Positions 8,895 through 14,162 of a stretch of 64,000 nt of DNA are shown piece after piece. Numbering within the stretch: the first letter of the stretch is position 1; every line of letters begins with the position of its first letter. Location: contig JACRBC010000129.1 in assembly GCA_016213245.1 (NCBI GenBank), positions 1 to 64,000 on the forward strand, given 5' to 3'. Below the pieces are notes generated by a model. That model saw only the letters and a list, made by a program, of their open reading frames with translations. It was not told the origin of the DNA and searched no databases. Source of the DNA: Candidatus Solibacter usitatus. Lineage in GTDB: Bacteria; Acidobacteriota; Terriglobia; Bryobacterales; Bryobacteraceae. Both the position numbers and the translations under genes were made by a program.

Positions 8895-9776
8895 TCAGCG
8901 AGCCCGCCCCTCCAACGCCCCCGCCACCAGCCACAGCCACAGACACACCGCCAGCGCCAGGTGCGCGATCTGCATCCACACCGGCGCCAGCAGCAGCACA
9001 TTCACCACTCCCGCCGCCAGTTGCACCGCCGTCAGCCACACCACCCAGTTCTTGACCCTGCCGCGGAACGACGTCAGCGCCGCCACCAGCAGGAACATCC
9101 CGCACGCCGACGCCACCACCGGATGCAGCAGCCGCAACTTCAACAACGCCGGTGCGTCCCTGGAAAACTCCTGCCGTATCCCCTCCGCCAGCGATACCGC
9201 CGGCCAGATGGTGTCCCCCAGCGCCGCCACCACCCCTGTCACAGCCGCCGCCAGCGCCACCCCCAGCGCCGCCCACGCCATCGGCGGCACGTTCCGCCAC
9301 GTCCCCTCCGCCGTCCGCGCAAACCACGCCGCCGCCGCCAAGGCCCCCAGCAGCAGCAGCGTGTTGGTCAAGTGCGCGCACAGGTACAACGCCCGCCCCG
9401 CCGAGGCGTTCTTCTCCACATACGCCAGCAGCACCAGTCCAGCCCCCAGCAGCGCCTCCACGATGATGAACCCTAGCGAGATCCAGGCGTACTTCCTTGC
9501 CAGATGGCCCTTCGAAAACAGCCGCCGGCTCCACCACACCAGCCCCAGCACGCCGATCAATGCCACCCCGCTCGTCACCCGGTGCATGAACTCAATCACC
9601 GTCGCCATCGCCGGCGAGCGCGGCAGCATCTCCCCGTTGCACAGCGGCCAGTGCTCCCCGCACCCCGCCCCGGATCCCGTCGCCCGCACGAACGCCCCCC
9701 ACAACACCACCAGCACGTTCCAACCCAGCACGCCCCAGGCGTACCGCTCGAATGACCGAATGCGCTTGTCCATCAC
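8895..9776 (-). CDS. ctaA: COX15/CtaA-type heme A synthase
   Basis: Polytopic membrane protein of 293 residues with about eight TM helices. The family marks are FVRATGSGAGCGEHWPLCNG near residues 28-47 and EFMHRVTSG near 62-70, with further His residues in later helices (CAHLTNT, RLLHPVVASA, AHLALAV). It oxidises heme O to heme A for cytochrome oxidases. No cox genes lie nearby. It is divergent from the methyltransferase gene, only 18 nt apart. The C residues in GAGCGEHWPLC could form the redox pair known in CtaA. Confidence 0.85.
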   Translation of the reverse strand: MMDKRIRSFERYAWGVLGWNVLVVLWGAFVRATGSGAGCGEHWPLCNGEMLPRSPAMATVIEFMHRVTSGVALIGVLGLVWWSRRLFSKGHLARKYAWISLGFIIVEALLGAGLVLLAYVEKNASAGRALYLCAHLTNTLLLLGALAAAAWFARTAEGTWRNVPPMAWAALGVALAAAVTGVVAALGDTIWPAVSLAEGIRQEFSRDAPALLKLRLLHPVVASACGMFLLVAALTSFRGRVKNWVVWLTAVQLAAGVVNVLLLAPVWMQIAHLALAVCLWLWLVAGALEGRAR

Positions 9777-9780
9777 CTTC

Positions 9781-9786
9781 TACAAT
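9781..9786 (+). promoter_or_regulatory. Candidate -10 box for a leaderless transcript
   Basis: TACAAT lies 8 nt before the ATG of the methyltransferase gene, in the 18-nt gap between divergent genes. Transcription would start at or next to the start codon. No convincing -35 was seen. Confidence 0.4.
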
Positions 9787-9794
9787 GTCACTTT

Positions 9795-10442
9795 ATGCCC
9801 CATTCGTTGCGCCACGCCTGGACCTCCTCTGTCACCGCCCTGGATTATGAGACCCACATGGCCGCCATCGGCCAGGCTCAGGCCAACGCGCTCCACATCG
9901 CCGATTTTCTCGCCCGCATCTCCCCGCCCCCCGCCGCCCGGGTCCTCATCGCCGGCGCCGGCACCGGCCAGATGTTCACCGTCGTCCCGCCGGGCATCTT
10001 CGACGGCCTCCGCCCCGTCTTTTCCGACATCAACCCCGCCTTCCTCGCCTGCCTCCGTCAACGCGTCCCCGGCGCCCCCTGCGTCGCCGACGACCTGGAA
10101 CACTCCGCCCTCCGCGGCCCCTTCTTCGCCGCCGCCGCCGTCCTCGTCCTCGAACACATCGACTGGCGCAAAGGACTCGACACCCTCGCCCGCCTCGCGC
10201 TCGCGCACCTCTTCCTCGTCATCCAGTCCAACCCGCCCCACATCGCCACCGCCGTCTCCCCCCACCGCACCTTGCCCGGCACCATGGCCGCCTTCTCATC
10301 CTCCCACCCCAACCTCATGCACAAGCCCGAAGTCCTCGCCCACCTGGCCACCCTCGGCTACGACCTCGCCCAGGAAGACCCGCGCCCCGTCGCCGACGGC
10401 AAGGTCATGCTCGGTCTGAGCTTCCGCGGTTGCTGCCCCTGA
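9795..10442 (+). CDS. Class I SAM-dependent methyltransferase
   Basis: Rossmann-type methyltransferase. Motif I is VLIAGAGTGQMF (about residues 50-61). An acidic strand end (FSDINPAF) binds the SAM ribose. FFAAAAVLVLEHIDW is the motif-IV region, typical of methyltransferase-11/25 families. 215 residues. The substrate cannot be predicted. It is a single gene with no partner, next to the left edge of the low-G+C island. Confidence 0.75.
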   Translation: MPHSLRHAWTSSVTALDYETHMAAIGQAQANALHIADFLARISPPPAARVLIAGAGTGQMFTVVPPGIFDGLRPVFSDINPAFLACLRQRVPGAPCVADDLEHSALRGPFFAAAAVLVLEHIDWRKGLDTLARLALAHLFLVIQSNPPHIATAVSPHRTLPGTMAAFSSSHPNLMHKPEVLAHLATLGYDLAQEDPRPVADGKVMLGLSFRGCCP

Positions 10443-10535
10443 CGGCCCACCCCGTGCACCCCGCCGCCATCGCCACGAATGTCCCATCCAACACCGGGCC
10501 CTTCGTCGGCCAGTACCCCGGCGGCAAGATTTGGT
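10443..10535 (-). pseudogene. Decayed 3' fragment of the 12909-14162 membrane gene
   Basis: On the minus strand this stretch reads LPPGYWPTKGPVLDGTFVAM and then AAGCTGWA. The C-terminus of the intact gene at 12909-14162 reads LPPGHWSTGGFVMEASFVAM and then AAGCTVWA. About 30 codons match, in the same strand and order, with no upstream coding part left. The match marks the left edge of the 10.4-12.9 kb insert. Confidence 0.75.
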
Positions 10536-10599
10536 GGCCGGACGCATGCGTCACAACAGAGTCTCTATCGCCCTGATCCTCGGTCCGCGCAAGGGCCTG

Positions 10600-10941
10600 T
10601 CAATACGGTCGGGCGCTGTTAGTATCCCCAATCTCTCGGTTCTTGCGTTTTCCCTGCTTCAAGAACCAGAAGAAAACGACGGCGTACATCCCGAGCATAA
10701 ATGCGTTGAAGGCGATGCAATCGGGAGTGTATAACTCGCTCTGCTCTTCTTTGAGACACACTCGAAGGGCGTTCACAATGGGCGAAACGTGAACGGTGAC
10801 TCCCGTCAGCGGAATGGACCACACCGCCCGAGGATACAGCCGTTGAACAATCAGGGTGATGAGAAGCCCAACGGTACAGAAGAACCATATGGCGTGGTTG
10901 GCGTTTCTGAATAGACTGGCGTCAACGACCCACTGAATCAT
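10600..10941 (-). CDS. Small membrane protein, unknown
   Basis: Not recognised. 113 residues with two or three hydrophobic segments (AIWFFCTVGLLITLIV near residue 16, AFMLGMYAVVFFWFL near 80) and a basic tail KQGKRKNREIGD. Base composition is clearly lower in G+C than the flanks. It lies 41 nt downstream of the ICMT-fusion gene on the same strand, so the two may be co-transcribed and share a membrane task. Confidence 0.55.
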   Translation of the reverse strand: MIQWVVDASLFRNANHAIWFFCTVGLLITLIVQRLYPRAVWSIPLTGVTVHVSPIVNALRVCLKEEQSELYTPDCIAFNAFMLGMYAVVFFWFLKQGKRKNREIGDTNSARPY

Positions 10942-10982
10942 AAACTACTAGTACCTTAGACACGGTCCTCAGGGCAACGCGG

Positions 10983-12290
10983 TTAACCGCCATCGGCCGC
11001 TCCTCCCTTCGGGTTCGCGCGCCCAACTTGGCGCATCAGCACCAGCAGCCCGCCGAGATAAAAGAATGCTGCCATGGACGCCACAACTCCAAGCCCAAAT
11101 GCCCACCGGCTGAGAGGCGAATCGAGTGCACCACTCGTTGTAACGCCAACTCCGGTAATCGCGCCGACCAGCATGACCGGAACCGTGAACCAGACAACCG
11201 CCGCCATAAGATCTAGCAGCAGCGAGAGCTGTCGCACACGTCCAACGAACCTCTCGAACTTCTCTTCGTACGCAAGTACATTGCCGCCCACAAGTTCGAT
11301 CAGTCGGCGTCGCATGTGAGCGAAGTGGAGTGCCACGCAGAAGAACGAATATGCTTGGTACGCCGACGCTATGATCAACACTGAATTGAGCACGGGGAGG
11401 AAAAACAGGAGAGGCCAGAAGTACCCGACACTCATCAACCGCGAGACGACGCTGTCGGACTTGCTGGAGTTCTGAAGCAGCCACGTCAAGACCACAAGAA
11501 TACCCGTGTTGTGGTAGATCGCAATCTTTACGAAAGTTGCCTTGGCATCCCGCTGAAACTCGGACAGAGCGTTGTATTCAGCGAGGTGGATCTCAATCTC
11601 GCTCTTCTCGGCGTCGGAGAGAGACGCCTTTTTGATCGCGAAGATTCGGGGTGAGCGCAAATCTGCACTCGCTGGGGAGCGGTGCCGGCGCGACGCTCTT
11701 CGCCATACACCGAGAATGAGGTTCACTCCCGGGACCTCAGCACTGTACACTTCGTATTCAGTCCCGAAGGTTCGCCGTAACGTTCGCTCCTCCTGCGGAA
11801 TCCTCACGGCCCAACCGATCACCACCGTGGCCAGGACCAGCCACACGTACCACGTCTGCAGAAACAGCAAAACCCCGAGCGTGTCCAACACGTACGCTAC
11901 ATACAGGGGATGACGCACCAGCGAGTACATCCCATGTCGCACCAGCCTGTGTTCGGAGCGAATATCTACATTCAGGCTGTACATCTTCCCAAGATCACGT
12001 AGCGCGAGAAATCGCGCGATGATCCCAAGGAGAAACACGAACCAACCAACGTAGTACCACTCGTTGCGAGCGACACCGTGCCACAGCCAGGCAACCGTGA
12101 ACACCACCAGAGCATTCTTCGGCCCTACCACTAGCAACAATTCGTGCCAATCACCTTTGGTGCCCGACGTATCCCGATGTTTAAGAAGGAACAGTTGGTA
12201 GAGAAGCCGCGATCCATAGACGACCGCAAACAGAACAGCGTCAAAGGCGCCACTGGTTCCACCGACTTGGATCGTCAAGTTCAACCTCAC
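10983..12290 (-). CDS. ICMT-like membrane methyltransferase fused to an unknown membrane domain
   Basis: Residues 1-205 resemble the isoprenylcysteine carboxyl methyltransferase/PEMT family: several TM helices, then RHPLYVAYVL and the closing EERTLRRTFGTEYEVYSAEVP, the SAM-binding end of that fold. Residues 206-435 form a separate part: a charged linker (SLSDAEKSEIEIHLAEYNALSEF) and about four TM helices with a cytoplasmic-looking stretch HMRRRLIELVGGNVLAYEEKFERFV. I know no family for the second half. The start is GTG at 12290. TACAAT lies only 1 nt upstream, so a TTG at 12284 could be the true start if transcription begins there. Low G+C suggests transfer. Confidence 0.7.
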   Translation of the reverse strand: MRLNLTIQVGGTSGAFDAVLFAVVYGSRLLYQLFLLKHRDTSGTKGDWHELLLVVGPKNALVVFTVAWLWHGVARNEWYYVGWFVFLLGIIARFLALRDLGKMYSLNVDIRSEHRLVRHGMYSLVRHPLYVAYVLDTLGVLLFLQTWYVWLVLATVVIGWAVRIPQEERTLRRTFGTEYEVYSAEVPGVNLILGVWRRASRRHRSPASADLRSPRIFAIKKASLSDAEKSEIEIHLAEYNALSEFQRDAKATFVKIAIYHNTGILVVLTWLLQNSSKSDSVVSRLMSVGYFWPLLFFLPVLNSVLIIASAYQAYSFFCVALHFAHMRRRLIELVGGNVLAYEEKFERFVGRVRQLSLLLDLMAAVVWFTVPVMLVGAITGVGVTTSGALDSPLSRWAFGLGVVASMAAFFYLGGLLVLMRQVGRANPKGGAADGG

Positions 12291-12454
12291 GATTGTATCG
12301 AAGCCGAAGCAACTCTGGTTCCACTGGGAGGGACCAGGAAAACCGGCAGGATTCGACCACGGGAAGGAGTGCGGGCACTGTCTGCACTTTCCCTGAAGGC
12401 GGACGGGACCGCCTGGAACCGGAGCAACCGCGGAACGAGAGGAAGTCGTCCAGC
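12291..12454. other. Gap inside the low-G+C island
   Basis: No convincing coding sequence. It holds the upstream region of the ICMT-fusion gene, including TACAAT on the minus strand at 12292-12297. Nothing else was recognised. Confidence 0.4.
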
Positions 12455-12673
12455 CTACGCGGCTTCGTGGATCGGTTCGTGATGCAGACGCATGAACTGG
12501 TCGGCCTTCACTGAGGGCATCGCGTACGCCCGGCCGTCGTCATCGCAGAACTCGACCTCGTACACCCCCGACGCCAGGTCCTCCACCACGGTGCCGACCT
12601 GGCCGCGGACCAATCCCAGCTCCGGAAAGTCCTGGAGCAGAGCAACCACCGCAAGCATCTCAGTTTCGGCCAT
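12455..12673 (-). CDS. DUF4926-domain protein
   Basis: 72-residue protein matching DUF4926: an opening LLQDFPELGLVRGQVGTVVE, a strand VYEVEFCDDDGR and a closing MRLHHEP. It resembles small SH3-like barrels. The ORF track begins at 12745, but the ATG at 12673 is preceded by TAGGA about 8 nt upstream and matches the family length. DUF4926 genes often sit beside a second small gene in a putative toxin-antitoxin pair; no such partner is visible here, so it may be an orphan. Confidence 0.7.
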   Translation of the reverse strand: MAETEMLAVVALLQDFPELGLVRGQVGTVVEDLASGVYEVEFCDDDGRAYAMPSVKADQFMRLHHEPIHEAA

Positions 12674-12819
12674 GACGATCCTACCTTCTGTAGTGCATAC
12701 CAGCTCGTCCGCCGTGGCAAATCCTGTCACGACCAAACGATCCATGGCGTGAATCCTGCTTCCCGAGCCGCGCTGCGCCGTTCCGGGCCACTGCTGGTAA
12801 AGAAACGAACATGGTGTTT

Positions 12820-12848
12820 CCTTTCGTTAGCACGAGACGAACGAAAGG
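12820..12848. repeat. Perfect 9-bp inverted repeat near the island edge
   Basis: CCTTTCGTT and AACGAAAGG are separated by 11 nt in the gap between the DUF4926 gene and the membrane gene. It could be an operator, a terminator-like hairpin without a T-run, or part of an element end. Confidence 0.55.
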
Positions 12849-12908
12849 ATCCAACCACCTCATGAAGGCCCCGGCAAATCCCCGGCTGGGTCGCAAAGTC
12901 GTTAAACC

Positions 12909-14162
12909 TCAGGAGCGGGCATCCGTCCGCGCGTTCGATGGCATCCCGGCAACGGAACCGATTCGCTGAGCCCGCGCCCACACCGTGCATCCCGCCGCCA
13001 TCGCCACGAACGACGCCTCCATGACGAAGCCCCCTGTCGACCAGTGGCCGGGCGGCAATGCGACCTTCAACACCGAGACGCCCACCGCGCACCACGTCAT
13101 CAGCAGAAACATCGCCCGCGCCCGCGCCTGAATCGCCGTCACCCACGCCACCACGGCTGACCCGGCAACCACCGCCGCCCATCCCGCCCACACACCCACC
13201 GCCGGCTTCGCCTCGTGCAGGTCCATGAAGAACGCGCAGCAGGTCACGGTGATCGCGATCTGCCACGACAACATCTCCGACCACAGCGCCGCGGCCAGCA
13301 ACAGGCTCCCCGCCACCGTGTACCCAAACCGGATCTTCAGGCTGTACTCCAATCCGATCCCCACCAGCGCCAACGCCACTGCCGCCGCCAGCGCCAAGGG
13401 CACGTTAAACCTTCGAACGCCCCCCCGCGCGCCGCCAATCTCTGCGCGGCTCCGGTACGCCGCCCACCCATAGGCCATCCCCAGCAGCGCCCCAAACGTC
13501 AGCTCCATCATCTTCCACCAGTCAATCCACGGCCTCATCCCCGTGGGCCGCCCCCACGCCTGAATCGCCGCCCCCAACGCGAACCCCACTCCGCCGCCCA
13601 GCGCGCCCCAGCCCGCGAATCGCCACAACAGACGCGCCCCGCCGCGCCGGCCCATCCACGCGAGCAGCAAGAGCCCGCCCAGCACAAGGCCCGCCCATAG
13701 CTCCTCGCGCGGCTTGTCCACGCGATTGGAAAAGTAGATCAGCTTCGGGTGATTGATCGCGATCCACCCCGTCCAGGTCCCTGCCACCATCAGCGCCAGC
13801 CCCGCCGCCAGTTCGCGCCGCGCCGGCCGCTTCAACCCGAGCGCCAGGAACGCCCCGCCCAGCAACCCCCACGCCGCGCCCTTGATCGCAAAGCCCGTAA
13901 TCGCCCACCAGAAGGTCTCGGGCTGCAACGCCAGACCCACCGTCTGCCCGTAGGTCTCCTGCCCGCCGAATCCCACGCCCACCGCCCCGAACGCCGCCAG
14001 CAGGCCCGCTTCATCGCCGTCCCGCTCGAGCAGCAGCGCCAGGCACAGCGCCACCATCGCCCCCGGAATCATCGCCCCCAACGGGCCCCCGCCGATGAAT
14101 CCGCGCAATCCCCAGCCCAGCGACATCGTCAGCGCCGGGAATAGGAGCCAGCGGAAAGGCAT
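12909..14162 (-). CDS. Polytopic membrane protein of unknown function
   Basis: 417 residues with about eleven predicted TM helices, Gly-rich near the start (SLGWGLRGFIGGGPLGAMIPG). A family in acidobacteria and planctomycetes appears similar, but I cannot name a function. The ATG overlaps the sdhB stop (TAATG), so it is the fourth gene of the sdhCAB operon. The C-terminal 30 codons have a decayed second copy at 10443-10535. A role alongside succinate dehydrogenase is not supported beyond gene order. Confidence 0.65.
   Translation of the reverse strand: MPFRWLLFPALTMSLGWGLRGFIGGGPLGAMIPGAMVALCLALLLERDGDEAGLLAAFGAVGVGFGGQETYGQTVGLALQPETFWWAITGFAIKGAAWGLLGGAFLALGLKRPARRELAAGLALMVAGTWTGWIAINHPKLIYFSNRVDKPREELWAGLVLGGLLLLAWMGRRGGARLLWRFAGWGALGGGVGFALGAAIQAWGRPTGMRPWIDWWKMMELTFGALLGMAYGWAAYRSRAEIGGARGGVRRFNVPLALAAAVALALVGIGLEYSLKIRFGYTVAGSLLLAAALWSEMLSWQIAITVTCCAFFMDLHEAKPAVGVWAGWAAVVAGSAVVAWVTAIQARARAMFLLMTWCAVGVSVLKVALPPGHWSTGGFVMEASFVAMAAGCTVWARAQRIGSVAGMPSNARTDARS

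Follow-up and report, generated by a model that had tools for sequence, protein, structure and literature searches.

To our knowledge, bacterial ICMT-type methyltransferases are abundant and almost uncharacterised. RhlM, an ICMT-family enzyme that esterifies rhamnolipids, was presented as the first bacterial representative of this type to be characterised; SAM is contacted by its residues H122 and E162, and the authors predict that the family accommodates an amphiphilic substrate together with SAM (PMC11069360). The bacterial ICMT network published in the same work was limited to proteins of 150-330 aa (PMC11069360), so that a protein of 435 aa would be left out.

A protein of that length is encoded in the window analysed here, a stretch of 64,000 nucleotides from Candidatus Solibacter usitatus (contig JACRBC010000129.1), in which a methyltransferase of this type is continued by a second membrane domain. 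The features discussed below are as follows.

9795-10442, plus strand: methyltransferase-like gene (soluble)
10445-10527, no strand: left copy of an 83-bp repeat, the native 3' end of the 417-aa gene, abutting the methyltransferase-like gene
10528-12975, no strand: low-GC inserted island of ~2.45 kb (56-60% GC against ~67%), absent from four same-genus genomes
10600-10941, minus strand: small membrane protein of 113 aa, three hydrophobic stretches, 41 bp downstream of the fusion-gene stop codon
10983-12290, minus strand: fusion gene of 435 aa, ICMT/PEMT-type methyltransferase (residues ~1-195), charged linker and four-TM domain (~206-435)
10986-11675, minus strand: orphan C-terminal half, residues 206-435, no relative found
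11676-12290, minus strand: methyltransferase half, residues 1-205, four hydrophobic segments, motifs RHPLY and EERTL...FG..Y..Y
12455-12745, minus strand: DUF4926 protein of 96 aa, on the island
12909-14162, minus strand: 417-aa gene
12976-13058, no strand: right copy of the 83-bp repeat, within the intact 417-aa gene

The fusion gene and its methyltransferase half

The fusion gene placed at 10983-12290 by a first-pass annotation is real, with its strand corrected to minus: 435 codons run from a GTG start at 12290 to a stop codon ending at 10983, and the plus strand carries several stops across this interval. GC at the codon positions is 0.62/0.40/0.67 in the N-terminal half against 0.61/0.42/0.67 in the C-terminal half, an evenness which makes the frame one coding unit and rules out the C-terminal half as a misread second frame. 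GC3 is 0.673 and 0.671 in the two halves and 0.883 in a neighbouring host gene. The frame is thus a single gene, foreign to its host.

Judged by its sequence, the N-terminal half is clearly an ordinary member of the ICMT/PEMT integral-membrane methyltransferase superfamily. The methyltransferase region spans residues ~75-190 and passes the gathering score of Pfam ICMT (PF04140; residues 85-171, E 3.1e-16, 60 bits against a cut-off of 24), with a further match to Pfam PEMT (residues 79-177, E 4.9e-12). A sequence search of the PDB returned the ICMT structures 4a2n (E 1.4e-10), 5v7p (E 2e-6) and 5vg9, with E values between 1e-10 and 7e-6 for the three. All of the methyltransferase marks named in the first-pass annotation are present, namely RHPLY at 126-130, EERTL at 167-171, FG at 175-176 and the tyrosines Y179 and Y182. 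The RHP histidine and the EE glutamate look like counterparts of H122 and E162 in RhlM, if the positions correspond as we infer. Two more precise identities were rejected on NCBIfam cut-offs. The score for protein-S-isoprenylcysteine O-methyltransferase proper (NF040696) is 73 bits against the equivalog cut-off of 160, and that for LmtA (TIGR04571; 36.8 bits over residues 85-188) falls far short of its cut-off of 325.

For comparison, open reading frames were read for 28 methyltransferase relatives of 173-318 aa from other genomes of the same phylum. RHPLY and EE..L...FG..Y, the SAM-site motifs, are conserved across them, and the N-terminal half retains nearly all of the residues that they conserve; those kept from positions conserved in most relatives are L100, G101, H114, L116, G120, Y122, R126, H127, P128, Y130, R163, E167, E168, F175, G176 and Y182. 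In all 28, the match to the N-terminal half ends no more than ~16 residues from the relative's own C-terminus, so that the ~230 further residues of the fusion protein are an addition. Since these relatives stop where the methyltransferase stops, the fusion with the C-terminal half is unique within the set searched.

The orphan C-terminal half

The added half carries hydrophobic segments at residues 254-272, 291-309, 357-375 and 400-418, preceded by a charged loop and linker of ~95 residues with 16 K/R and 13 D/E. Hydropathy, charges and low-confidence models predict the order long cytosolic helix, TM, TM, cytosolic helix, TM, TM; the positive charges of the loops fit a cytosolic placement of the linker, the loop 310-356 and the tail. 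Pfam, NCBIfam, PADLOC, PHROGs and PDB sequences contain no match, and the half therefore stands as first described, a separate domain with four predicted TM helices that belongs to no recognised family and matches no well-known domain with a routine role. Structure prediction from the single sequence did return four long helices, but at low confidence (pLDDT 52 for the full length and 61 for the C-terminal half), and PDB fold searches with these models gave no match with E below 0.9; for these two reasons no fold is claimed.

Stand-alone homologues of residues 206-435, which the first-pass annotation had proposed looking for, were not found in the genomes, plasmids, phages and viral contigs searched. 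No credible relative turned up in 396 genomes of the phylum, 257 of the order and 387 of the class (partly overlapping sets), nor in plasmids and phages by tblastn, and peptide-pattern scans of low sensitivity found none in viral contigs and genome contigs; the reach of these searches beyond the host's own phylum is limited. The genome-contig scans require near-exact short peptides and say little on distant relatives; they yielded 50 pattern matches with the C-terminal half and 18 with a two-sequence ICMT alignment led by the full protein, none of which was confirmed. Viral contigs scanned with the C-terminal half, with an ICMT alignment and with an EYxxL protein (see below) gave nothing. The searches of phylum, order and class genomes also gave weak hits to the C-terminal half (E 0.002-0.05), which were judged to be membrane-composition noise; two of their loci, when opened, contained neither a methyltransferase fusion nor a similar domain.

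A further line of search, started from a consensus motif, found an unnamed family of four-TM proteins, here called EYxxL, of which plasmids as well as genomes from the host's phylum carry real members. These proteins have ~180 aa, the motif L.EY..L..E and the layout two TM, cytosolic helix, two TM. The proteins at L061:3962-4495, L063:3968-4519 and L064:3968-4519 carry LxEYxxLxxE, GRYIR and FGWE and have no Pfam match. On one Streptomyces and one Nostoc plasmid the EYxxL gene lies near an annotated 5'-methylthioadenosine/S-adenosylhomocysteine nucleosidase, an arrangement that might mark a conflict-system neighbourhood. At L065:1489-2031 an EYxxL-type four-TM protein follows a metallo-beta-lactamase-like ORF, and the same upstream layout is found in a second genome (L066).

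The island and its insertion site

Base composition drops from ~67% to 56-60% GC between ~10.5 and 12.95 kb. In four same-genus genomes the 417-aa gene and the methyltransferase-like gene at 9795-10442 adjoin directly, leaving an empty site which in three of the four is flanked by ctaA and, on the opposite side, by sdhB/sdhA. In the nearest congener (G397) the two genes are ~14 bp apart. Positions 9581-10527 of the window align to G397 1-954 and those from 12975 onward to G397 871 onward; because these alignments overlap, the window contains two copies of G397 871-954 (10445-10527 and 12976-13058). Identity is 78% between the copies; against G397 it is 78% for the left copy and 84% for the right. 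On the left the repeat runs on into the native terminus of the 417-aa gene, and on the right it remains in the reading frame of that gene; the island was therefore inserted at the gene's 3' end and provided it with ~22 new terminal codons. The extent to which the copies differ suggests either that the insertion is old or that the repeat was brought in from a relative. The fusion gene sits on this acquired low-GC insertion.

The unit had been described at first as possibly mobile. This stands as far as the acquired insertion and the empty site in four congeners are concerned, but there is no integrase or transposase among the ORFs of the island, no tRNA in a scan of the window, and no obvious terminal inverted repeat at the island ends, which are instead an 83-bp duplicated gene end. 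A repeat of 83 bp far exceeds the usual length of a target duplication. A transposon was accordingly rejected, on the length of the repeat and the lack of transposase and obvious inverted repeats.

The island carries the genes for the 113-aa membrane protein, whose position downstream of the fusion gene agrees with the first description, the fusion protein and the DUF4926 protein, all on the minus strand. They are co-oriented with sdhA, sdhB and the 417-aa gene, with which they may possibly be transcribed. The 113-aa protein has no relative in eight congeners or in plasmids. DUF4926 relatives are scattered over 19 of 100 other related genomes at one copy per genome, a pattern expected of a small mobile gene. 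The 417-aa protein is conserved, multi-TM and without Pfam match, and its gene immediately follows sdhB both here and in close congeners.

Readings of the fusion protein and comparison with known enzymes

The reading that we favour, at somewhat better than even chances, is that of an ICMT-superfamily methyltransferase, SAM-dependent and integral to the membrane, which was acquired horizontally, acts on an amphiphilic substrate and has gained an accessory four-TM module. The N-terminal half would most likely bind SAM at the cytosolic face through RHPLY and EE..L...FG..Y and methylate the acidic or amine head of a bilayer-embedded substrate, in the manner of RhlM with rhamnolipid. The C-terminal half would begin in the cytosol, continue as two TM hairpins joined by a cytosolic helical loop, and serve most probably as a platform for binding or oligomerisation, used either by the substrate or by the 113-aa membrane protein. 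Behind this reading stand the homology and retained motifs of the methyltransferase, the evidence for one coding unit and an insertion at a position that is vacant in relatives; the role suggested for the C-terminal half is drawn from its topology, both structure models being of low confidence. Membership of the ICMT family does not by itself fix the substrate, and no substrate gene is found among the immediate neighbours (ctaA, the soluble methyltransferase-like gene, the 417-aa gene and sdhB/sdhA), which counts against this reading.

It is unlikely, in our judgement, that the C-terminal half is a divergent EYxxL protein, that is, a stand-alone membrane protein joined here to a methyltransferase. 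The predicted order of parts is the same as in the EYxxL proteins (L061, L063, L064 and L065 are examples), a LAEYNAL motif lies at the matching place, and in a five-sequence alignment one P and the motif's E and Y do not vary. However, WE and GRYIR, which the family conserves, are absent from the half or hard to make out, and profile similarity is not significant. Against 127 unrelated membrane segments as decoys and with profiles built from only 4-6 sequences, hmmsearch ranked the half under 3, 10 and 17 decoys for three family profiles, and hhalign placed it under 9 of the 127. The hhalign probability of a match to the family is 0.9%. L065 and L067, excluded from the core profile, still score 2e-9 and 1e-5, whereas the half lies among the decoys. 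As the resemblance is not supported against decoys, the half is not filed in this family.

Multi-TM domains are common effectors in membrane-targeting conflict systems, and an acquired island that holds membrane proteins without relatives next to a DUF4926 gene would suit a conflict unit, in which methylation restrains or tunes a membrane-disrupting C-terminal half and the small membrane protein acts as its partner. We regard this as very unlikely, since PADLOC is blank for every island gene, no nucleotide-binding, nuclease or sensor partner is on the island, and the fusion gene and small membrane protein do not recur as a pair in the other genomes searched, which speaks against a conserved conflict system. 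The defence role raised by the first-pass annotation likewise finds no support, as four proteins from this region match no PADLOC-DB protein model and the neighbouring genes that were examined include none for defence; this leaves at most a defence unit of a kind not yet described. An accident without selected joint function, either a recent chance fusion or a gene in decay, would explain why the architecture is seen in one draft genome and is absent from all others searched; the long open frame, the even codon-position GC of both halves and the intact catalytic motifs argue instead for selection on the whole gene, and make such an accident improbable to our minds.

Returning to the favoured methyltransferase, a natural ICMT fusion would hint at the working partners of these enzymes if the C-terminal half were tied to the substrate or a partner. 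So far the gene is an isolated orphan on an acquired island of small size, and the gain is therefore limited. More speculatively, and with doubtful prospects, the protein might represent a new two-domain class of bacterial membrane enzymes that modify lipids or lipoproteins and spread by horizontal transfer, in which a likewise new four-TM fold offers the substrate for methylation at the cytosolic leaflet or links up with a second small membrane protein to that end. Among the closest described enzymes, LmtA, the lipid A Kdo2 1-phosphate O-methyltransferase, is recognisably related over residues 85-188 (37 bits). The ICMT family (PF04140), including the archaeal Ma ICMT (PDB 4a2n) and the bacterial RhlM, has in common with the fusion protein a methyltransferase core of ~110 residues with all signature motifs, together with the four hydrophobic segments seen in the N-terminal half; whereas the members read end just past FG..Y..Y, the fusion protein goes on for 230 extra residues that bear four further hydrophobic segments.
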